Source: Chelatococcus sambhunathii (GTDB lineage: Bacteria > Pseudomonadota > Alphaproteobacteria > Rhizobiales > Methylopilaceae). From it: a stretch of DNA of 34,472 bases. Under the pieces are notes generated by a model, which saw only the letters and a list, made by a program, of their open reading frames with translations, did no database searches and was not told the origin of the DNA. Shown one piece after another: positions 55 to 15,811 of this stretch. Each line of letters begins with the position of its first letter. Positions within the stretch are counted from its first letter, which is position 1. The stretch spans positions 1-34,472 of the forward strand of contig JADBEO010000044.1 in NCBI GenBank assembly GCA_031316315.1, written 5' to 3'. Both the position numbers and the translations under genes were made by a program.

Positions 55-1347
55 TCAGCAGTCCAGCGTGTTGTCGCGCTCCCACTGGCTCAGGTGGCGG
101 CAGTGGTTGTTCCACTCCTGCATCTTGAGCTTGGAATAGGCGGTGACGAACTCATCGCCGAACATCGCGCGGGTCGCCGCGGAGCCCTCGAACAGCCGAA
201 GCGCGTCGAGCAGGTTGAGCGGCAGTTTCTTGACGCCCTCCACCGTGTGGCCGTCGGTGTACATGTTGATGTCGAGGCGCTTGCCTGGGTCGCGCTTGTT
301 CTCCATGCCGTCGAGGCCGGCGGCGAGGATCGCGGCCTGCAGGAGATAAGGGTTCGCGGCGCCGTCGCCGAGGCGGAACTCGAAGCGGCCCGCATCCGGG
401 ATGCGGATCATGTGGGTGCGGTTGTTGCCGGTGTAGGTGATCGAGTTCGGCGCCCAGGTCGCGCCGGACGTCGTGCGCGGCGCGTTGATGCGCTTGTAGG
501 AGTTCACCGTCGGGTTCGTCAGCGCGCAGATCGCGTCCGTGTTGTGCATCAGGCCGCCGATGAAATGGTAGCCGGTCTGGCTGACCCCGAGTTCCCCATT
601 CGGATCCTCGAACAGGTTCGTCTTGCCGTCCCACAGCGAGACGTGGGCGTGGCAGCCTGAGCCGGTGAGGTTCACGAAGGGCTTCGGCATGAAGGTCGCG
701 CGCAGGCCGTGCTTCTCGGCGATCGACTTCGCCATGAACTTGAAGAAGGCGTGCTGGTCGGCGGTCTGGAGAGCGGGTCCGTAGTTCCAGTTCATCTCGA
801 ACTGGCCGTTCGCGTCCTCATGGTCGTTCTGGTAGGGCGCCCAGCCGAGCGAAAGCATGCTGTCGCAGATCTCGGTGATGACCGCGTAGCGGCGCATCAG
901 CGCTTGCTGATCGTAGCAGGGCTTTTCGGCGGTGTCGGCGAGGTCGGAGATCTGGGTGCCGTCGGCGTTGACGAGGAAGAACTCGCACTCGACGCCGGAC
1001 TTCATCTGGCAGCCGGACTTCGCGATCAGCCGCTTCAACGTGTTGCGCGGGGCCTGCTCGACCTCCTTGCCGTCCATCCAGAGATCGGCGGCGAGCCAGC
1101 CGACTTCCGGCTTCCAGGGCAGCTGGATGAGGCTGTCGGGATCGGGCTTGGCGAAAAGGTCGCTGTCGGACGGGCTCATGTCGAGCCAGGTCGCGAAGCC
1201 CGCAAAGCCGGCGCCGGCCTTCTGCATGTCGCCGATGGCGGCGGCCGGAACCAGCTTGGCGCGCTGCGAGCCGAACAGATCGGTGTAGGAGATCAGGAAG
1301 TACTTGATGCCGCGATCCTTCGCGGCTTTGGAAAGATCGGACGCCAT
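55..1347 (-). CDS. gmaS: Type III glutamine synthetase family: gamma-glutamylmethylamide synthetase or GlnT
   Basis: ATP-dependent ligase of 430 residues that joins ammonia or methylamine to the gamma-carboxyl of glutamate in the cytoplasm. Glutamine synthetase motifs are visible: GVECEFFL (118-125), HEDANGQFEMN (176-186), GSGCHAHVSLWD (229-240), NPTVNSYKR (278-286) and RFEFRLGDGAANPY (321-334). These supply the metal, ATP and glutamate sites. The ATG at 1347 is preferred over an upstream in-frame extension because the family N-terminus begins there and GGGGA lies just upstream. The gene is last in a run with three glutamate synthase-like subunits, the order seen for gmaS-mgsABC in methylamine users and glnT-glxBCD in rhizobia. 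Sequence alone does not separate GmaS from GlnT; the adjacent permease and regulator favour an amine role. A 163-base gap separates it from the preceding gene, so it may have its own promoter. Confidence 0.85.
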   Translation of the reverse strand: MASDLSKAAKDRGIKYFLISYTDLFGSQRAKLVPAAAIGDMQKAGAGFAGFATWLDMSPSDSDLFAKPDPDSLIQLPWKPEVGWLAADLWMDGKEVEQAPRNTLKRLIAKSGCQMKSGVECEFFLVNADGTQISDLADTAEKPCYDQQALMRRYAVITEICDSMLSLGWAPYQNDHEDANGQFEMNWNYGPALQTADQHAFFKFMAKSIAEKHGLRATFMPKPFVNLTGSGCHAHVSLWDGKTNLFEDPNGELGVSQTGYHFIGGLMHNTDAICALTNPTVNSYKRINAPRTTSGATWAPNSITYTGNNRTHMIRIPDAGRFEFRLGDGAANPYLLQAAILAAGLDGMENKRDPGKRLDINMYTDGHTVEGVKKLPLNLLDALRLFEGSAATRAMFGDEFVTAYSKLKMQEWNNHCRHLSQWERDNTLDC

Positions 1348-1510
1348 TTCTGTCAGTTCCCCGTTTTTAGCCCGCACCTGGGCACGTCTTCTGGAGGGGA
1401 CCCCGGGCAAAAAAAGAGCCAGGAGCACGCCTGAACGCTTTCGCGGATCGGCGTCGCTCCCGGCCCGACGGCTGACGCCGCCGAAGAGGGGCGACGACGC
1501 CTTCCGAGTT

Positions 1511-2857
1511 TTAGAACCGTCCCGTCAGGCCCGGCACCCAATCCGTGCCGGCGATCGGCACCTGGGCCATGGCGGCGGCCTCGATGGTCAGCGCCACGAG
1601 GTCTTCCGGCTCGAGATTGTGCACATGGCTCTTGCCGCAGGCGCGGGCGATGGTCTGGGCTTCCAGCGTCATCACGGCGAGGAAGTTGGCCAGGCGCCGG
1701 CCCGCCTTCACCGGGTCGAGCCGCTTCATCAGCTCGGGGTCCTGCGTGGTGATGCCGGCGGGGTCGCGGCCCTCGTGCCAGTCGTCATAGGCGCCGGCGC
1801 GCGAGCCGAGGGCGCGGTACTCCTCGTCGAGCGCGGGATCGTTGTCGCCGAGCGCGATCAGCGCGGCCGTGCCGATCGCGACCGCGTCCGCGCCAAGCGC
1901 GAGCGCCTTGGCGACGTCAGCGCCGTTGCGGATGCCGCCGGAGACGATCAGCTGCACCTTGCGATGCATGCCGAGGTCCTGCAGCGCGCGCACCGCGTTG
2001 CGGATCGCCGCGAGCGTCGGGATGCCGACATGCTCGATGAACACTTCCTGCGTCGCGGCGGTGCCGCCCTGCATGCCGTCGACCACCACAACGTCGGCCC
2101 CGGCCTTCACGGCGAGCGCCGTGTCGTAATATGGGCGGGCGGCGCCGACCTTCACATAGATCGGCTTCTCCCAGTCGGTGATCTCGCGCAGCTCCTCGAT
2201 CTTGATCTCGAGATCGTCCGGGCCGGTCCAATCGGGATGCCGGCAGGCCGAGCGCTGGTCGATGCCTTCGGGCAGGTTGCGCATCTGGGCGACGCGCTTG
2301 GAGATCTTCTGGCCGAGCAGCATGCCGCCGCCGCCGGGCTTGGCGCCCTGGCCGACCACCACCTCGATCGCGTCGGCCTTCCGGATGTCGTCCGGGTTCA
2401 TGCCGTAGCGCGAGGGCAGGTACTGGTAGACGAGCGTCTTGGAATGCCCGCGCTCCTCCTGCGTCATGCCGCCGTCGCCGGTGGTGGTCGAGGTGCCCAT
2501 GGCGGACGCGCCGCGCCCCAGTGCTTCCTTGGCCGGGCCCGACAGCGAGCCGAAGCTCATGCCGGCGATGGTGACGGGGGTCTTCAGCTCGATCGGCTTC
2601 TTCGCGAAGCGGGTGCCGAGGACGACGTCGGTGCCGCACTTCTCGCGATAGCCCTCGAGCGGGTAGCGCGAAATCGAGGCGCCGAGGAACAGCAGGTCGT
2701 CGAAATGCGGGACCTTCCGCTTCGCGCCGGCGCCGCGGATGTCGTAGATGCCGGTCGCCGCCGCGCGGCGGATCTCGGACATGGTGTAAGCGTCGAAGGT
2801 CGCGCTCTCGCGCGGCAGCGTCGCCGGGATCGGCGGGGCCTTGAAGTGCTCGTTCAT
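1511..2857 (-). CDS. mgsC: N-methylglutamate synthase large subunit / GlxD, FMN-binding glutamate synthase domain
   Basis: Protein of 448 residues matching the FMN-binding synthase domain of glutamate synthase. The TIM-barrel signatures are MSFGSLSGPAKEAL (100-113), TTTGDGGM (124-131), GQGAKPGGGGMLLGQKI (169-185), VDGMQGGTAAT (259-269) and SGGIRNGADVAKALALGADAV (306-326). It would transfer ammonia, released by the amidase subunit, or methylamine nitrogen to a carbon skeleton to form N-methylglutamate or glutamate. The segment where GltB carries its [3Fe-4S] cysteines reads AGAYDDWHEGRDPAGITTQ (354-372) and has no cysteine; the only cysteines are 74, 205 and 407. The start at 2857 has a GA-rich ribosome site, and the preceding gene stops 10 bases away, so the genes are co-transcribed. 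Confidence 0.87.
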   Translation of the reverse strand: MNEHFKAPPIPATLPRESATFDAYTMSEIRRAAATGIYDIRGAGAKRKVPHFDDLLFLGASISRYPLEGYREKCGTDVVLGTRFAKKPIELKTPVTIAGMSFGSLSGPAKEALGRGASAMGTSTTTGDGGMTQEERGHSKTLVYQYLPSRYGMNPDDIRKADAIEVVVGQGAKPGGGGMLLGQKISKRVAQMRNLPEGIDQRSACRHPDWTGPDDLEIKIEELREITDWEKPIYVKVGAARPYYDTALAVKAGADVVVVDGMQGGTAATQEVFIEHVGIPTLAAIRNAVRALQDLGMHRKVQLIVSGGIRNGADVAKALALGADAVAIGTAALIALGDNDPALDEEYRALGSRAGAYDDWHEGRDPAGITTQDPELMKRLDPVKAGRRLANFLAVMTLEAQTIARACGKSHVHNLEPEDLVALTIEAAAMAQVPIAGTDWVPGLTGRF

Positions 2858-2867
2858 CGCCTTCGCC

Positions 2868-3575
2868 TCAGTAGGCCGACGCGTTGTCGACGTGGAAGTG
2901 ATAGAGCGTCCGGCCGGAGCCGTAGCGCTTGAATTCGGACGGATCGATCTGGCCGTTCACGCCCGCGGACTTGAAGCGCTCGAAGAGCTCTTGTCTGTGC
3001 TCGTCGCGCATTTCCTTCTCGATGCAGTCGGCGCCGAGGCTCGCGACCGAGCCGCGGACGTAGAGCCGCGCCTCGTAGATCGAGTCCCCGAGCGCCTCGC
3101 CGGCGTCGCCGAACACGACCATGCTTCCCGACTGGGCCATGAAGGCCGACATGTGGCCGACCGAGCCCTTCACGACGATGTCGACGCCCTTCATCGAAAT
3201 GCCGCAACGCGCCGCGGCGTTGCCCTCGATGACGAGCGTTCCGCCATGGGCCGTCGCGCCGGCCGCCTGGCTCGCGTCGCCTTCGACGTGAATGAGGCCC
3301 GACATCATGTTCTCGCCGACGCCGACGCCGGCCGAGCCGCGCACGATGATCGTGGCCTGCTTGTTCATGCCGCCGCAGTAGTAGCCGACGGGACCATCGA
3401 TCTCGACTGTGACAGGCGCGTCGACGCCGGCCGCGATCGCGTGCAGACCTCGCGGATTGGCGATCCGCCAGAGCGAGGCGTTCGAGCCCTCCTTCAGCGC
3501 GTGCAGCGCCGAGTTGAGCTCGCGGACCGAGGATCCCGCGAGATCGATCGCGTGGCTTTCGACGTTGGCGTTCAT
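2868..3575 (-). CDS. mgsB: N-methylglutamate synthase GXGXG subunit / GlxC
   Basis: Protein of 235 residues corresponding to the C-terminal GXGXG beta-helix domain of glutamate synthase, here a separate subunit. Glycine-rich turns repeat regularly, for example GPVGYYCGG (61-69), GSAGVGVGENMMSG (80-93), GDASQAAGATAHGGTLVIEGNAA (99-121, a stack of turns) and GDAGEALGDSIYEA (156-169). The domain is structural and holds the synthase and amidase parts together. The ATG at 3575 follows AGGGGGCG at good spacing; an in-frame ATG at 3599 would add eight residues and is less well supported. It sits between the amidotransferase and FMN subunits, as expected for a three-gene split glutamate synthase. Confidence 0.85.
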   Translation of the reverse strand: MNANVESHAIDLAGSSVRELNSALHALKEGSNASLWRIANPRGLHAIAAGVDAPVTVEIDGPVGYYCGGMNKQATIIVRGSAGVGVGENMMSGLIHVEGDASQAAGATAHGGTLVIEGNAAARCGISMKGVDIVVKGSVGHMSAFMAQSGSMVVFGDAGEALGDSIYEARLYVRGSVASLGADCIEKEMRDEHRQELFERFKSAGVNGQIDPSEFKRYGSGRTLYHFHVDNASAY

Positions 3576-3604
3576 GAGCCGCGCCCCCTGAGCTGTCATG
3601 GTTG

Positions 3605-4492
3605 TCACGCCGCGGCCCGGTCCCAGAAGTAGGCCTTGGCCGGCTCCGGCTCCCAGACCTTCGCGTTCTCGATGCCGGGCAGGCCGGCGAGCGCGCGATA
3701 TTCCGAGCCGAAGGCGACGTACTGGTCGGTCTCGGCCATCACCGCCGGCTTGCAGGCGATCGGGTCGCGGATGACGCCGAAGCCGGTCTCGGTGCCGACG
3801 ACGAAGGTGTAGAAGCCGTCGAGATCGTCGAGCGAGTCCTCGAGGGCCTCGCCAAGCGTGCGGCCCTGGTTCATCCGCCAAGTCAGATAGCCGGCGGCGA
3901 CCTCGCTGTCGTTGTCGGTCTGAACGGGCACTCCGGCGCGGTCGAGGTCGCGGCGAACGCTGCGATGATTCGACAGTGAGCCGTTATGGACGAGGCACTG
4001 GTCCGCGCCCGTCGAGAACGGATGCGCGCCGTTGGTCGTCACGGCGCTCTCAGTCGCCATGCGGGTGTGGCCGATGCCGTGGGTGCCGGTCATCTTGGAA
4101 AGTTCGAAGCGCTCGGCGACCTCGCTCGGAAGCCCGACTTCCTTGAAGAGCTCCATGCGCTGGCCGGCGCCGACGACCGCGACGTCCTTGGTCTTGGCGA
4201 CGATGGCGCGGATCTCCGCTTCGCGCGCGGCCGGCGCCGAGACGACGGCGTGGGTGCCGCGCACCGAGACCGTGACGTCGTCGCCGAGCGTCTTGCCGAG
4301 GGCGGCGAAATCGAAGCCCTCCGGCGCGCGCAGGGTCAGCTTGATCTTGCCGCTCTCGCCGGAGCCGTACACGGCGAAGCCGGCCGAGTCCGGGCCGCGA
4401 TCGCACATGACGTCAAGCATCCCGCTCAGCATCTCGCCGAGCTTGGGTTCGAGAGCCTTGTCTTTCAGGAAAAGTCCGACGATGCCGCACAT
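3605..4492 (-). CDS. mgsA: N-methylglutamate synthase amidotransferase subunit / GlxB (class II glutamine amidotransferase)
   Basis: Protein of 295 residues with an N-terminal-nucleophile glutamine amidotransferase fold. It begins MCGIVGLF, so removal of Met1 exposes catalytic Cys2. Other glutaminase motifs are RGPDSAG (32-38), GHTRMATES (141-149), NGAHPF (154-159), HNGSLSN (169-175) and DNDSE (193-197). It would release ammonia from glutamine, or handle gamma-glutamylmethylamide, for the FMN subunit. The ATG at 4492 is fixed by the need for Cys2; the open frame extends 26 codons further upstream without family resemblance. It is the first gene of the synthase operon, behind a good sigma70-like promoter and a putative operator. 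Confidence 0.87.
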   Translation of the reverse strand: MCGIVGLFLKDKALEPKLGEMLSGMLDVMCDRGPDSAGFAVYGSGESGKIKLTLRAPEGFDFAALGKTLGDDVTVSVRGTHAVVSAPAAREAEIRAIVAKTKDVAVVGAGQRMELFKEVGLPSEVAERFELSKMTGTHGIGHTRMATESAVTTNGAHPFSTGADQCLVHNGSLSNHRSVRRDLDRAGVPVQTDNDSEVAAGYLTWRMNQGRTLGEALEDSLDDLDGFYTFVVGTETGFGVIRDPIACKPAVMAETDQYVAFGSEYRALAGLPGIENAKVWEPEPAKAYFWDRAAA

Positions 4493-4664: not shown

Positions 4665-5414
4665 TCAGTCCTTCTCGTACATGATGATCGACAGGTAGCT
4701 GAGCGGGGTCCGCATGATCCGCTCTGGCCCGTGCGGCGCGCCCGAATCGAACAGCAGGGTGTCGCCGGGCTTCATGTCGTAGCTGTTGCCGGCATGAGCG
4801 TAGGTGACCTCGCCGGTGAGGATGTGGATGAGCTCCGTCCCCTCGTGCTGGAACGCCGTGTAAGGGGCGGCGTCGTCCGCGAGCGTGATCAGGTAGGGCT
4901 CCACCGCGACCGCTCCGCCAAGCATGTGGCCGAGAAGTTCATAACGATGGCCGACCTTCGTGCCGCGGCGCTGGATCGAGACGCCCTGTCCCGCCGGGAC
5001 GAAGGAGCAGTCCCGCCGCTCTTCGAACTCGGAAAACAGCAGGCTGATCGGCATGTTGAGCGCGGAAGCGAGCGTCTGCAGCGTGGTCAGCGACGGCGAG
5101 ATCTGGCCGTTCTCGATCTTCGACAGCATGCCGTTCGAGACCGAGGCCGCGCTGGCGAGCTCCGCGACGGTGAGGCCCATCGCCTTCCGGTGATGCCGGA
5201 TCTGCAGACCGATCGCCTGTTCGAGCGTGCGGCGCGCGAGCGCGGCCGGCGCGTTGGAGCCCGTGACGTAGGGCTCGCCGTCGTCCGTCGGCTCGACCGC
5301 CTCGAGCCGCGGCGTCGCGCCCGAGGCGGGCCGCGACGAGGCCTTAAGCGCGGACGGCTTCGCCGGCGCGGTCTTGGAACGGGAAGTCTTTGCGAGAGAG
5401 GACTTTGGGGCCAT
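4665..5414 (-). CDS. XRE-family regulator with C-terminal cupin sensor domain
   Basis: Protein of 249 residues. Residues 1-50 are a basic, Lys/Ala/Ser-rich, probably disordered tail. Residues 68-123 form an XRE helix-turn-helix (LTVAELASAASVSNGMLSKIENG), and about 168-245 form a cupin with HEGTE (190-194), GEVTYAHAG and APHGPER. Such proteins bind an operator as dimers and sense a small ligand in the cupin. The gene lies between the permease operon and the mgs operon on the same strand, and a matching AT-rich palindrome precedes both operons, so it is the likely local regulator, possibly responding to an amine or glutamyl-amine. Its own 87-base upstream region lacks a clear copy of that motif. 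The start at 5414 is the only ATG before the tail, so the N-terminus is moderately certain. Confidence 0.85.
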   Translation of the reverse strand: MAPKSSLAKTSRSKTAPAKPSALKASSRPASGATPRLEAVEPTDDGEPYVTGSNAPAALARRTLEQAIGLQIRHHRKAMGLTVAELASAASVSNGMLSKIENGQISPSLTTLQTLASALNMPISLLFSEFEERRDCSFVPAGQGVSIQRRGTKVGHRYELLGHMLGGAVAVEPYLITLADDAAPYTAFQHEGTELIHILTGEVTYAHAGNSYDMKPGDTLLFDSGAPHGPERIMRTPLSYLSIIMYEKD

Positions 5415-5501: not shown

Positions 5502-5774
5502 TCAGCGTCCTGTGCCGGCCACGCGCGCGCGTTCCTGATCGAGCCGCGCCGAGCGATAGGCGTCCGGAATAGACAGCGCCCAGACCAGGACGCCGCCGGC
5601 GTGCTTGCTGATGAGCGACGCGTCCGGCGCCGCGAACTTGGCGGTCAGCCAGCCTCCGATCAGCGTGAAGAAAGCGAAGCCGAGCCCGCGCGCCGCCCGC
5701 CCGATCAGTACGTGGCCGACTCCCGGCAGCAGGGCCGCGACGGCGAGCACGAGGCGCGGGTCAGGCGGCCTCAT
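5502..5774 (-). CDS. Small TM2-like membrane protein, last gene of permease operon
   Basis: Protein of 90 residues with hydrophobic stretches at about 8-25 and 30-47 and a third, weaker one near 58-70. The sequence LLPGVGHVLIGRAARGLGFAFF resembles the PGxGxxxxGrxxrG pattern of TM2-type small membrane proteins. I do not recognise a function. The ATG at 5774 overlaps the end of the preceding gene by 14 bases in another frame, which supports translational coupling. An in-frame ATG at 5792 is an alternative. The C-terminus is charged (SARLDQERARVAG). Confidence 0.55.
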   Translation of the reverse strand: MRPPDPRLVLAVAALLPGVGHVLIGRAARGLGFAFFTLIGGWLTAKFAAPDASLISKHAGGVLVWALSIPDAYRSARLDQERARVAGTGR

Positions 5775-6447
5775 GGAGGTCTGCCTGGTCATGGGCCTGG
5801 ACGTGGTCTGCGATGGCGGCCGCCAGATCGAGCGCGGCGCGCGCGGTAGACGGATCAACCCGTGCCTCGTCGAAGCGGGTCTCGCGGAACAGGACGTAGG
5901 ATCCGCGAAGCCCCTGTGCGGCCTGCCGGACGATGCGGACTCCGCGCGGCGAGACAGTGATCGCCTTGAGCCGGTCGTCCGCCAAGGCTTCCGCTAGGAC
6001 AGGCCCCAGCGACCCTAGCAGAGCCAAGGCCCCCGGCGAGACCCGGACGCTCGTGTCCTGAGGCCACTCCGCGGGTGGGCGGACCGAGAGAGGAAGGCCT
6101 GCGCCGCCCGTGAAGGCGTCGGCGTCGCCGGGTCGCCGGATGATCTCGATCGAGGGCCGGCCGTCGTTCTGCTCCAGCAGGGTCGCCGCCAGCCAGAGCT
6201 GCGGCAGCTTGCGGAAGGCGAGGGCGTCGGCGATCGGGGTCAGCGCCGCGCGCCGACCGCGATGAACGCCACGGAGGACGCCGTAGCCGGAGCGCGCGAC
6301 GCTGGTTTCCGCGGCCTCCAGGACATCGGAGCAGTCCGCGAGAATCGCGCGTCGCACCGCCCGATCCCGCGCATTGGCGCGCAGGATCGCGACGGCCGCG
6401 GCCAGGAGCGCCGCGGCGAGCGCGAGAAAGCCGGCCGCGGTCTCCAT
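5761..6447 (-). CDS. Hypothetical protein with N-terminal membrane anchor
   Basis: Protein of 228 residues. A single hydrophobic helix (about 3-24, FLALAAALLAAAVAIL) is followed by a soluble region rich in Arg and Ala, with no family motif that I recognise. It starts four bases after the permease stop and overlaps the next small membrane gene, so it belongs to the permease transcript. The soluble part contains PSIEIIRRPGDADAF and a stretch SPRGVRIVRQAAQG that looks beta-rich. It could be an accessory or quality-control factor for the transporter. Function unknown. Confidence 0.6.
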   Translation of the reverse strand: METAAGFLALAAALLAAAVAILRANARDRAVRRAILADCSDVLEAAETSVARSGYGVLRGVHRGRRAALTPIADALAFRKLPQLWLAATLLEQNDGRPSIEIIRRPGDADAFTGGAGLPLSVRPPAEWPQDTSVRVSPGALALLGSLGPVLAEALADDRLKAITVSPRGVRIVRQAAQGLRGSYVLFRETRFDEARVDPSTARAALDLAAAIADHVQAHDQADLHEAA

Positions 6448-6450
6448 TGG

Positions 6451-7872
6451 TCAGTACCCCCTCGGCTTCGGCCAGGGCATCGTGAACTGCTCGCCGCGAC
6501 GGCAGTACTTGTAGCGGTGCAGGACGAACCAGGCCGAGGCGACGATGTAGAACACCATCATCGCCAGCAGCTGGGTGCCGTATCCGAGGAACACCGCGAC
6601 GTAGGTGATGGCGCAGAGCGTCAGCAGCAAAATCGCGGGCAGCGGATGCAGCGGGTGGATATAGCCGCGCGCGATCGAGTCGAGCGGCCACTTCCTGCGG
6701 AAGATGATCACGCCGATCGCCATGATCGTGTAGCCGAGCAGGCCGGACAGAATCGACAGCGTGATCGTCTGGTCGAGCGGCGTCGAGATCGCGAACAGGA
6801 TCGCGATCGGCACGAAGAACACGATCGAGCGGAACGGCGTGCGGTAGGTCGGATGCACGCCGCCGAACCAGACCGGCATGTAGCGGTCGCGGCCCATGGC
6901 GAACCACGCCCGGGACGCGTCGTTGATGCAGCCGTTCGCCGAGGCGAGCGTCGCGAACAGCGTGCCGACGAACAGGAACACCTCGAGCGGCTTGGAGCCC
7001 GTCAGGCGCGCGGCGTCGTAGAGGGGCGTGATCGCCTGGCCGAGATACTCCCACGGCATCAGGCCGGCGCCGATGTACCAGGTGATGGTGGCGGCGATCA
7101 GCAGCGTCATGATGCCGGTGAGCGTGCCGAGCGGCAGCGAGCGGGCCGGCGACCGCACCTCTTCAGCCGCCTGCGTGGTCCCCTCGATTCCGAGATAGAA
7201 CCAGAGGCCGAAATGCATCGCGGCCAGGATGCCGAGGCCGCCATAGGGAAGGCCCGTCAGCAGCTGATCGTGCATCACCACCGTGCCGGGCGTCAGCGGG
7301 TTCACCGCCACGAACAGCGCGATGATGGCGGCGAAGGCGATCGCCGTGATGATGTAGTTGATGGTCAGCGTCGCGAGCACGCCGCGATAGTTCAGCCACG
7401 ACAGGAAGACGATCGTCAGCACCATGTAAGCGCGTTTGTCGACCTCGCCCTCGAGGCCCATGTTGGCCGCGAAAGCCTGGATCAGGTCGCCGGTGACGAT
7501 GGCGTTCGACACCTCGAGCATGGTGTAGGCCATGACGAGGTAGAGACCGACGTTGAACGCCGCGAGCGGCCCGATGATGTGCTTGGCCTGGGCGTACTGC
7601 CCGCCGGCTGCGGCGACCGTGGAGGTGACCTCCGAGTCGATCATGGCGACGCAGGTGTAGAGGATGCCGGCGAGCCAGCAGGCGGTGAGCGCCGCGATCG
7701 CGCCGCCTTTGCCCACCGCGAAGTTCCAGCCCATGAACTCGCCGACGAGCACGATGCCGACGCCGAGGCCCCAGACGTGGGCGGGGCCGAGCACGCGCTT
7801 CAGCGCGACGCGCTTGGGCGCGGCGGCGGGGGAGGGGGCGAGGGCGCCGGGTGTGTTGGAGATGTCGACCAT
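6451..7872 (-). CDS. APC-superfamily permease, ethanolamine-permease-like
   Basis: Protein of 473 residues with about 12 hydrophobic segments. The first helix region GVGIVLVGEFMGWNFAVGKGG resembles the substrate-binding start of ethanolamine permease-type APC transporters, and GIEGTTQAAEEVRSPARSLP is the conserved loop after helix 6 of APC proteins. It would import a small amine or amino acid by proton symport. The ATG at 7872 shares its A with the TGA of the 56-residue gene (TGATG), so translation is coupled. The open frame continues upstream, but that part overlaps two other coding genes. Next to a methylamine-assimilation module, candidate substrates are methylamine, ethanolamine or a gamma-glutamyl amine; this is inference. 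Confidence 0.85.
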   Translation of the reverse strand: MVDISNTPGALAPSPAAAPKRVALKRVLGPAHVWGLGVGIVLVGEFMGWNFAVGKGGAIAALTACWLAGILYTCVAMIDSEVTSTVAAAGGQYAQAKHIIGPLAAFNVGLYLVMAYTMLEVSNAIVTGDLIQAFAANMGLEGEVDKRAYMVLTIVFLSWLNYRGVLATLTINYIITAIAFAAIIALFVAVNPLTPGTVVMHDQLLTGLPYGGLGILAAMHFGLWFYLGIEGTTQAAEEVRSPARSLPLGTLTGIMTLLIAATITWYIGAGLMPWEYLGQAITPLYDAARLTGSKPLEVFLFVGTLFATLASANGCINDASRAWFAMGRDRYMPVWFGGVHPTYRTPFRSIVFFVPIAILFAISTPLDQTITLSILSGLLGYTIMAIGVIIFRRKWPLDSIARGYIHPLHPLPAILLLTLCAITYVAVFLGYGTQLLAMMVFYIVASAWFVLHRYKYCRRGEQFTMPWPKPRGY

Positions 7873-8042
7873 CACTGCCTCGCAACCGTCTCGCCGACCT
7901 CGGCGTCGATGATCTCGCCCTCGGCGGAGGACGTCAGATAGGCTTCGCTGTGGGAGCGGTTGGTGGAGATCATGTCCCACAGCATCCACAGCGCGAGCAC
8001 GGCGGAGATTCCCCAGGCCGCATAGTTCATCAGGACGATCAT
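7872..8042 (-). CDS. 56-residue single-pass membrane protein in permease operon
   Basis: Short gene read directly from the minus strand. It begins MIVLMNYAAWGISAVLALWM with one transmembrane helix at about 5-25, then a hydrophilic acidic tail (SSAEGEIIDAEVGETVARQ). Its TGA overlaps the permease ATG by one base, and its start lies four bases from the preceding stop. The tight packing argues that it is a real gene and probably a permease partner. No family is recognised. Confidence 0.65.
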   Translation of the reverse strand: MIVLMNYAAWGISAVLALWMLWDMISTNRSHSEAYLTSSAEGEIIDAEVGETVARQ

Positions 8043-8045
8043 GGC

Positions 8046-8456
8046 TCAGGCTCCCCCGGATCGGCCGGCGCCGGGCCTGTCGTCGAAATGCTCGGCGATG
8101 ACGTCGCGATACTCCTTGTCGGACCAGCGCAGCATCCCGACGAAGTAGCCGATGATGACGACACCTGTGATCGCGAGCGCGACCCAGGAGAACTCGTAGT
8201 CGAAGCGCTTGCCGATGATCTCGGCGGCCTGGGCGGGGGCGAAGCCGAGCTTCTCCCACTGGCCCGCCATCGCCGCGTTCTGGCCGAGCGCTTCCCATGT
8301 CGGGTTGTCGAAGGTCTTCGTCGTCGTGCCGCCGCCGGCCAGCCCGAGCAGGAGCGGCAGGTAGAGCGTGACGAGCACGAGCGCGAGCATCAGCACGGCG
8401 TCGACGATCTGCCCGATCACCGATTGGGTCGGCGGTTCGTAGGGCGCCTTGCTCAT
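8046..8456 (-). CDS. 136-residue two-pass membrane protein in permease operon
   Basis: Predicted helices at about 18-40 and 90-108 are separated by a 45-50 residue hydrophilic segment (TTTKTFDNPTWEALGQ...FAPAQAAEIIGKRFDYEFS). The C-terminal tail is charged (RWSDKEYRDVIAEHFDDRPG). The ATG at 8456 overlaps the preceding stop as ATGA, so it is translationally coupled to the 98-residue gene. I recognise no family. The arrangement, a small two-helix protein made with a large secondary transporter, recalls small subunits of two-component transporters, but that is only an analogy. Confidence 0.65.
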   Translation of the reverse strand: MSKAPYEPPTQSVIGQIVDAVLMLALVLVTLYLPLLLGLAGGGTTTKTFDNPTWEALGQNAAMAGQWEKLGFAPAQAAEIIGKRFDYEFSWVALAITGVVIIGYFVGMLRWSDKEYRDVIAEHFDDRPGAGRSGGA

Positions 8457-8749
8457 CGGGCGGCCCTCTTCTCGGCGGCGATGCGGTCGAGATAGTAGAC
8501 GTCCGTGCCGTAGATCGCGGCCTTGTCCTCCTTGTAGTGGCGGATCAGCGCGACCACGGCGGCGGTGTTGAGCAGCAGCACAAGCCCGCCGAGGGCCAGC
8601 ATGAGCCAGGTCAGGCCCGCCGCCGCGAGATGGTCGTACATGCGCCAGTAAACGAAGAGATAGACCGCCCACACGGCCAGAACGCAGACATAGGCCGCGA
8701 CTTTGTCGCGTGCGTACATCGCGTCGATGCGGGATTCGTGGCTTCCCAT
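8453..8749 (-). CDS. 98-residue two-pass membrane protein, first gene of permease operon
   Basis: Helices at about 17-38 (AAYVCVLAVWAVYLFVYWRM) and 45-69 (GLTWLMLALGGLVLLLNTAAVVAL), then a charged cytoplasmic-looking tail with YGTDVYYLDRIAAEKRAAR. The ATG at 8749 has a strong GAGGAG ribosome site seven bases upstream, so it is preferred over an in-frame start 26 codons earlier that would run through the putative operator. It leads a six-gene coupled operon. Function unknown; it is probably an accessory subunit of the APC permease. Confidence 0.65.
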   Translation of the reverse strand: MGSHESRIDAMYARDKVAAYVCVLAVWAVYLFVYWRMYDHLAAAGLTWLMLALGGLVLLLNTAAVVALIRHYKEDKAAIYGTDVYYLDRIAAEKRAAR

Positions 8750-8956: not shown

Positions 8957-9934
8957 ATGAAGCTTTTTCTGCATGTCGGCACCCACAAGACCGGTTCGAC
9001 GCATCTGCAGATCTATCTGCGCAACCACGCGGCCGAACTGGCGCGACAGGGGCTGGTCTATCCCGATCCGGCGGACTGGTTCGGTGGGAAGCCTCAAGTC
9101 GCGCAGCACCTTCTGACGGCGGCGGCGGCGCAGAAGAAGAACAGGTTCGACGCCTGTCGCCGGCGTGTCGATCAGGCCCGTCTCGACGCGAGGCCCGGCG
9201 ACACGATGCTGATCAGCAGCGAGCCCGCCTGGCGCCGCACCTTCCCGGAGATCTGCCCGCCGGATGAGCTGTGGGAAGGGCGCCGCCGCTACGTGCGCCG
9301 CCTCAGGCGCGTTTTCGCCCGTTTCGACGCGACGGTCGTCGTCTGCCTGAGGAACCGCGCGACGTTCGGCGAGTCGCACTACGGCTCGGCGGTGAAGAGC
9401 GGCTATGCGAAAGGTTTCGAAGACTACCTCGAGGATCACGCCTTCATGTTCGATTACAACCGCCAGACGGCTCTGTTCCGCGAGGCGTTCGGCGACGTGC
9501 TGACCTACACCTACGAGGAGGCCGCCCGGGAGGGCGTCTCCGAGACGCTGCTGCGCAAGATCGGCTTCGTGGCGCCTGCGCCGGACGATCGCCCGCCCAC
9601 GCGGCGTTCGCCGGACCGGCGGCTGTTTCTTTGGCTCGCGCGCCGAAATGCGCTGGCGGGGGAGGAGCTGTCGGCGACGCGCAGCGAGCGCACGGCGTTC
9701 TCCATCACCGGTGCGGCGGCCGCGGCCCTGCCGGACGCCGAGCCGACCACGTTCTGGAGCGAGCGCACGCGCCCGTTCCTCGAGCGCTTCGACGACGGCG
9801 CCGCGATGGACGGCCTCGCCGGGCGGCGGCTCGCGAGCCTGTCCGAGGCCGAGCACGCCGCGCTGGACGCGGCGTTCGAGGACTGGCGGTCCTCCGACGA
9901 GGCGAGGAGGCGGCGGGCGAGGGTCGCGGCCTGA
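8957..9934 (+). CDS. P-loop sulfotransferase-like protein
   Basis: Protein of 325 residues. It begins MKLFLHVGTHKTGSTHLQ, the 5'-phosphosulfate (PAPS) loop of sulfotransferases (HVGTHKTGST, residues 6-15). The segment FDATVVVCLRNRATFGESHYGS fits the 3'-phosphate binding strand and helix (R..S). It would transfer sulfate from PAPS to a sugar or other acceptor; the acceptor is not predictable. AAGGAAG precedes the ATG. It is divergent from the permease operon and has no obvious operon partner. The C-terminal 100 residues are Arg/Ala-rich and poorly conserved in appearance. Confidence 0.7.
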   Translation: MKLFLHVGTHKTGSTHLQIYLRNHAAELARQGLVYPDPADWFGGKPQVAQHLLTAAAAQKKNRFDACRRRVDQARLDARPGDTMLISSEPAWRRTFPEICPPDELWEGRRRYVRRLRRVFARFDATVVVCLRNRATFGESHYGSAVKSGYAKGFEDYLEDHAFMFDYNRQTALFREAFGDVLTYTYEEAAREGVSETLLRKIGFVAPAPDDRPPTRRSPDRRLFLWLARRNALAGEELSATRSERTAFSITGAAAAALPDAEPTTFWSERTRPFLERFDDGAAMDGLAGRRLASLSEAEHAALDAAFEDWRSSDEARRRRARVAA

Positions 9935-15713: not shown

Positions 15714-15811
15714 GGAGGAGAAGCGTTCCCCGGTGGGGCGTCCGGTCTTCAAAACCGGAAGGGGCCGCGGATGCGGTCCCTGGTGGGTTCGACTCCCACT
15801 CTCTTCCACCA
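15714..15811 (+). tRNA. selC: tRNA-Sec (selenocysteine), anticodon TCA
   Basis: 98 bases including a genomic CCA end. The acceptor stem has eight pairs (GGAGGAGA with TCTCTTCC, one G-T), as in bacterial tRNA-Sec. The anticodon arm TCCGGT-CTTCAAA-ACCGGA has anticodon TCA at 15749-15751. A long variable arm (GGGGCCGC...GCGGTCCC) and a T loop GGTTCGACTCC follow. The overall pattern matches E. coli selC closely. It reads UGA as selenocysteine, so the organism should also have selA, selB, selD and at least one selenoprotein; none is in this window. Confidence 0.93.

Follow-up and report, generated by a model that had tools for sequence, protein, structure and literature searches.

A fixed six-gene block around an APC-superfamily permease, linked to gmaS, as a probable multi-part methylamine importer

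The 34,472-nucleotide stretch of Chelatococcus sambhunathii DNA analysed in this work (assembly GCA_031316315.1, contig JADBEO010000044.1, positions 1 to 34,472 of the forward strand; the window in what follows) carries on its minus strand, at 5502..8749, a permease of the APC superfamily, here called P, together with five genes for partner proteins, here called A to E. We found that these six genes are inherited as one evolutionary unit, and that the unit is linked, at the level of whole genomes and often by position, to gmaS and mgsABC of the N-methylglutamate pathway. Because the block is inherited in a fixed form and often lies beside genes for methylamine use, it is probably a multi-part methylamine importer, and we put the probability at roughly 0.55 that all six products make up a single secondary transport system that brings in methylammonium, or some other short alkylamine, and feeds the N-methylglutamate pathway. 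A multi-part importer of this kind would be unusual, since permeases of the amino-acid class are generally held to act on their own.

Co-inheritance of the permease and its five partners

Read from 8749 downwards, the order of the block is A-B-C-P-D-E. Protein A (98 residues, 8453..8749) has two predicted transmembrane (TM) helices, protein B (136 residues, 8046..8456) is predicted to have a small loop domain flanked by two TM helices, and protein C (56 residues, 7872..8042) has one predicted TM helix and a conserved tail. These are followed by P (473 residues, 6451..7872), which is ethanolamine-permease-like, by protein D (228 residues, 5761..6447), with a predicted N-terminal TM helix and an alpha/beta domain, and by protein E (90 residues, 5502..5774), a TM2-like small membrane protein. 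A and B overlap by 4 bases, C and P by 1 base, and D and E by 14 bases, spacers of 3 bp separate B from C and P from D, and an AGGAG that resembles a ribosome-binding site lies directly upstream of A. The first-pass annotation, which was made from the sequence alone, had placed six tightly coupled minus-strand genes here, and the six open reading frames (ORFs) and the measured distances between them bear this out.

In a sample of 347 genomes of the order, an orthologue of P (E <=1e-60, all at least 60% identical) was found in 52 genomes spanning 13 genera, and B lies 176-303 bp from P in every one of them. B is present in 55 genomes in total: in these 52, at a contig end together with A in G021, and as weak matches in two more. 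When the ORFs of at least 30 codons at all 52 P loci (the window, L141 and L167-L216) were searched with profiles of the six proteins, the full order A-B-C-P-D-E on one strand was recovered at 51 loci; the remaining contig, L195, stops after P. A scan of named genomes, in which the best 80 of 231 relatives of B were analysed, gave the complete order at 74 loci; of the other six, five are truncated by a contig end, and E is not recognisable in L071, which spans 20 kb. The D and E profiles derive from the named loci, and the profiles of the other four proteins were built with some of the order genomes, so that these two sets of loci are only partly independent tests. Among 72,556 plasmids, 22 records contain P at an identity of at least 60%, and exactly these records also contain B; the sole other permease within E 1e-20 is 29.6% identical to P.

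A and D also stay with the block when they are searched for on their own. Within 61 genomes, A searched alone was found in 15 and D alone in 14, and in these genomes neither was seen at any place apart from other module genes, counting the broken locus of G021 and a partial copy in G048 described below. The P clade is sharply separated, because the next-best paralogues of P are at most 31% identical to it (nine genomes, extra copies in G048 and G138 aside). The same order and strand recur across genomes, and the arrangement is thus far beyond chance. It was proposed at first that an APC permease, probably one that carries an amine, has three small proteins dedicated to it, an idea that would have suffered if these proteins occurred mostly away from the permease. 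The opposite was found, and the co-occurrence supports the proposal, except that the number of partners has to be raised to five, because D and E sit in the same fixed block and are linked to P as strictly as A to C. Gene order alone never proves a functional link, and six functionally unrelated genes might in principle merely share one operon; we regard this as negligibly probable, given that P and B occur together in 52/52 P genomes, in 22/22 plasmids, and in Burkholderiales as well as Alphaproteobacteria.

The closest named relative of B, at 93% identity, is in an uncultured Methylopila genome (L033). B was found in 7 of 385 genomes in a sample of the class (one match weak) and in 15 of 398 in a sample of the phylum (one weak), and 12 of the latter 15 belong to the order, so that the module is uncommon outside it. 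It also occurs in relatives of Rhodobacter, Gemmobacter, Paracoccus and Roseovarius, in Burkholderiales (Paraburkholderia, L126), and in G977, likewise outside the class. The weak B matches in the order sample, G125 (E about 7e-4) and G258 (about 5e-4), neither of which has P, were set down to chance, as were those in G354 and G796.

Linkage to gmaS and methylamine metabolism

With a threshold of E <=1e-100, gmaS was called in 119 of the 347 order genomes and in all 52 that carry the module, an association with a hypergeometric p of about 7e-29 when relatedness is ignored. It lies within 10 kb of P in 28 of these 52. At the named loci, the stretch examined contains gmaS in 39 of 80 cases (33 among the 58 longest stretches) and mgsC in 40. 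Where gmaS is present at a named locus, it stands upstream and divergent in 24 cases, downstream on the same strand in 10 and otherwise in 5; the neighbourhood varies while the six-gene block stays whole.

The window itself shows one same-strand run from 8749 down to 55, in which the block is followed by a regulator gene, mgsABC-like genes and a gmaS-like gene. The last of these (55..1428, minus) encodes a type III glutamine synthetase, a gamma-glutamylmethylamide synthetase that passes TIGR03105 with 656.8 bits against a cut-off of 469.6. The mgsA/B/C-type genes adjoin it, as in a locus of the N-methylglutamate pathway, and all lie on the minus strand: mgsC-like (1511..2857), for a protein with a flavin mononucleotide-binding glutamate synthase domain (PF01645, 307.3 bits); mgsB-like (2868..3608, start codon uncertain), for a GXGXG protein recognised from its translation and from the homologous stretch of Paracoccus plasmid pAMI6, which is annotated as a GXGXG domain protein; and mgsA-like (3605..4492), for a class II glutamine amidotransferase with GATase_6 and GATase_7 above gathering. 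The regulator (4665..5414, minus), separated from the end of the block by an 87-base gap without a change of strand, combines an XRE-type helix-turn-helix with a cupin (HTH_3 and Cupin_2 above gathering) and is PuuR-like, with a score of 54.6 against the PuuR model, below the cut-off of 211.

An XRE-cupin gene lies inside the stretch examined at 37 of the 80 named loci, several stretches being short, and its presence raises the thought that the permease and its partners serve less in transport than in sensing an amine and signalling, for example to this regulator. Such a transceptor would fit the tails of A to C, which hold many conserved residues and are cytoplasmic in our reading, but the five window partners contain no signalling domain at cut-off and no XRE-cupin gene is seen at the other 43 named loci, some of them in short stretches; we consider the idea highly improbable.

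Two replicons illustrate the variety of surroundings. On plasmid pAMI6 of Paracoccus aminophilus JCM 7686, the block is divergent from mgsABC-gmaS and its five partners are annotated as hypothetical proteins; the accessible parts of the genome paper treat the mgs and mgd operons, refer to methylamine dehydrogenase genes of the strain and make no mention of the block (PMC4543880). The consulted parts of other papers on the subject are likewise silent on it. In Sinorhizobium meliloti Ak57, an XRE regulator flanks the block on one side and gmaS-mgsCBA on the other; the surrounding cluster, which also holds genes for an oxidoreductase, an aminomethyltransferase, purU and sarcosine oxidase, resembles one for methylated amines, judged by product names. 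Of the 80 named loci, nine come from Methylorubrum records, and all clade B (Methylorubrum) strains are described as having grown on methylamine (PMC8561711), which is consistent with the module having a part in methylamine use.

Genomes with gmaS and without the module offer a comparison. We surveyed 20 loci out of 67 such genomes for transporters beside gmaS, with eight membrane ORFs scanned against Pfam, and found another AA_permease_2 protein at L146 and L149 and two Amt proteins at L162; at the other 17 loci, no alternative transporter was confirmed with these eight ORFs scanned. A phmmer search with E. coli AmtB missed both Amt proteins of L162, so that absence of Amt by that search is uninformative. 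With an APC permease at two module-negative loci and Amt at one, other transporters may fill the place of the module. G005 is the sole genome among 12 of its genus without B, and there an APC permease of another kind directly follows gmaS (L146 10091-11713). A transporter gene tied to the N-methylglutamate pathway is described in the gmaS-mgsABC-amt operon of Pseudomonas sp. C5pp, where methylamine import is assigned to amt; amt belongs to a different transporter superfamily from P, and no small partners are mentioned for it in the accessible part of that paper (PMC8292978).

Proposed working of the permease and its partners

We infer the direction of transport, the substrate, a physical complex, the topology of the proteins and the role of each partner as follows. 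P would be the transport subunit that carries the amine. A, B and C would be small inner-membrane subunits around P with their conserved tails on the cytoplasmic side, and D, through a cytoplasmic domain anchored in the membrane, and the small membrane protein E would both act on P in assembly, stability or gating. GmaS would trap the imported amine at once by ATP-dependent synthesis of gamma-glutamylmethylamide, and MgsABC would take over this product.

P scores above the Pfam gathering thresholds of PF00324 (99.1 vs 24.6 bits) and PF13520 (89.2 vs 27 bits). Its nearest solved relative by sequence is GkApcT (6f34/5oqt), in which Lys191 is reported to be tied to proton coupling (PMC5803215). 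In a low-identity alignment, Ala179 of P stands at the position of this lysine and is invariant in 78 P sequences, so P is without the ApcT-type lysine of TM5. P also has an invariant Glu45 in the TM1 region, at a position where amino-acid permeases bind the substrate carboxylate. A substrate that has no carboxylate, and a coupling mechanism unlike that of ApcT, would both be in keeping with Ala179 and Glu45. We entertain, tentatively, a stricter form of the proposal, in which the block encodes a new class of obligate multi-subunit APC alkylammonium importer, built of P and up to five families that carry no functional assignment in the libraries searched; its small subunits would provide the energy coupling or selectivity missing from P, which has alanine in place of the TM5 lysine.

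The 78 sequences contain 192 invariant residues of P; L058, L069, L109, L125 and L143 and sequences of 430 residues or fewer were left out of this set. The same five loci, being split, insert-bearing or over-long, were dropped beforehand from a comparison of distances at 37 loci, all with gmaS and all six genes. There, the mean p-distance was 0.24 for P, 0.275 for GmaS and 0.43-0.65 for A to E. This uniformity of P beside variable partners counts in favour of the proposed importer, though also of the main rival discussed below. The distances of the partners correlated with those of P at 0.88 (C), 0.77 (A), 0.65 (E), 0.60 (B) and 0.53 (D).

Several observations weigh against the proposed methylamine importer. 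The distances of GmaS correlate with those of P at 0.82, as well as those of the partners do, so the partners are not singled out and the distance comparison does not discriminate. gmaS is not close to P in 24 of the 52 module genomes, where the distance exceeds 10 kb or the gene sits on a different draft contig; 67 genomes have gmaS without the module, and the pathway thus does not need it; and G021, with its A and B at a contig end, gave no gmaS match. G048 holds, besides a complete block, a second partial copy (L140 3882-16836) in which A adjoins P and B lies about 11 kb downstream, with other genes between P/A and B and with C, D and E not found in this copy, so A and P may be separable from the rest, or the copy may be decaying. 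Finally, P falls short of the ethanolamine permease model TIGR00908, with 182.7 bits against a cut-off of 381.75. That no other NCBIfam model scores higher with P, which is aligned here over residues 22-452 of 473, counts in favour of the proposal and likens P to this family, whose members are described as single-gene permeases and differ from P in this.

The last of these points also bears on the substrate, as the module could move di- or trimethylamine, ethanolamine, gamma-glutamylmethylamide or N-methylglutamate, or export a surplus. The ethanolamine permease model, the Ak57 cluster, which by its product names resembles one for di-/trimethylamine breakdown, and the 24 genomes with a distant gmaS would fit this alternative, whereas the presence of gmaS in every module genome and of mgsC and gmaS at about half of the named loci argues for methylamine; on balance we find another substrate or direction unlikely.

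The partner proteins have few relatives to be compared with. It was noted at first that the small proteins belong to no recognisable family, and indeed the window copies of A, B, C and D reach no Pfam or NCBIfam cut-off. By hydropathy and positive charges, A and B would each cross the membrane with two TM helices and keep both termini inside, C would have a single helix and an inside tail, and D one N-terminal helix with the remainder predicted to be cytoplasmic. In A, B and C, many invariant residues are found in the tails, and B has further ones in its loop: A has a conserved C-terminal tail with the consensus HYxEDKxxIYGLDxxYLD, B a conserved N-terminal YxPPxQ and a C-terminal EYRxVIxExF, and C the tail motif L-x-SS-x-EG. 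AlphaFold2 modelled B as two TM helices with a mini-domain (pLDDT 83.2, with a pTM of 0.42, that is, low confidence in the packing); a fold search with B gave nothing useful, and profiles of A and B against PDB sequences gave nothing meaningful. E scores 17.7 bits against DUF6677, under the gathering threshold of 24.3, and no TM2 model is listed for it in the Pfam scan; it is conserved at the module loci. Weak hits of A to MASE3 (18.2 vs 31 bits) and of B to Rv1476 (13.1 vs 26 bits), as well as four Pfam families that each match one of 66 B homologues, were taken as chance.

D was modelled with high confidence as a TM helix and an alpha/beta domain (pLDDT 92.7, pTM 0.88). None of its 68 homologues has a Pfam match at E 0.01, and its profile found no PDB sequence at E up to 10. 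Foldseek gave 465 matches with E up to 10; among the best 50 of these, none reaches E <=0.001 and just two exceed a probability of 0.8: 7tm3_4, a chain of a multipass translocon structure (E 0.014), which we take to be CCDC47, a helper of other membrane proteins, and TtfA (6t84, E 0.054), a weak match with a probability of 0.85 and TM-scores of 0.38/0.46. TtfA is described as an accessory factor of MmpL3 whose N-terminal TM helix and soluble domain serve a transporter (PMC6593404). The layout of D is similar, and with the weak fold match and no PDB sequence match, we treat this likeness as a lead and not as a relationship.

These features of D bring in the main rival to the proposed importer, in which P is a complete transporter on its own and A to E are dedicated factors for its biogenesis, stability or turnover outside the working transporter. 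The modelled anchor and soluble domain of D suit it, as both best fold matches are helpers of membrane proteins, and so does the good conservation of P whereas the partners vary. GkApcT without the small single-TM protein MgtS is likewise reported to show lower total uptake with similar initial rates (PMC5803215). On the other side, five partners in a fixed order are much for mere helpers, and the fold matches of D lie above E 0.001 and lack PDB sequence support. We hold this rival to be possible, though rather doubtful.

Partners of this general sort have precedents. Heteromeric APC transporters are known, as are secondary transporters with small partner proteins. ActP and YjcH resemble the block in that the gene of a small membrane protein directly precedes that of a secondary transporter; ActP is not known as an APC-family permease. 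A is similar to YjcH in architecture in our reading; hhalign detected no homology of A with YjcH/DUF485 (probability 2%), and no DUF485 match was found in A to E in the Pfam and NCBIfam scans, only A having been compared directly with YjcH. An SLC3 partner is one large ectodomain protein, which differs from the five small proteins here that match no known family at cut-off; no heavy chain of this type was found beside P, as judged by the domains found at cut-off in the window proteins A to E. SLC7/SLC3 heteromers combine an APC-fold transporter with a non-transporting partner, and GkApcT was crystallised with MgtS packed on TM5, which is reported to let a cholesterol analogue stabilise GkApcT and to raise total uptake (PMC5803215). 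The premise that APC transporters normally work as single polypeptides, from which the first-pass annotation started, was thus too strong. Unlike the block partners, MgtS has 31 residues and derives from the E. coli host used for expression. Our searches of open-licence papers turned up no APC permease accompanied by five constant partners from unnamed families.

In a methylotroph transcriptome, amino-acid permeases are described as being among the methylamine-responsive functions, the specific ones being left unnamed in the part of the study available. The module is a concrete candidate for methylamine import in many methylotrophs and relatives of rhizobia, and it reduces the question of how methylamine enters the cell to a set of gene deletions. 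It may also provide a naturally occurring example in which several small proteins accompany an APC-fold transporter, and the partner protein families could gain names by function.

Irregular copies and flanking genes

Some copies of the block depart from the usual form. In G138 (L141 3869-6585), two P genes stand in tandem with a single set of A to E. At L143 (7612-8094) and in three further genomes from one and the same genus, B is matched as two segments, the loop between its helices carrying additional sequence. P is split over two frames at L058, L069 and L109, as is D at L058, and these may be sequencing errors or decay. On pSymB of S. meliloti Ak57 (L125 7391-8929), B and C are unlisted as genes though the profiles match both, and the frame of B extends beyond the usual stop.

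The divergent neighbour of the block in the window (8957-9934, plus strand) encodes 325 residues with zero Pfam matches; by our own reading, its start may resemble that of sulfotransferase-type proteins. Farther along, at 15714-15807 on the plus strand, lies a selenocysteine tRNA gene, which was called by ARAGORN and matches Rfam RF01852 at 71.8 bits.

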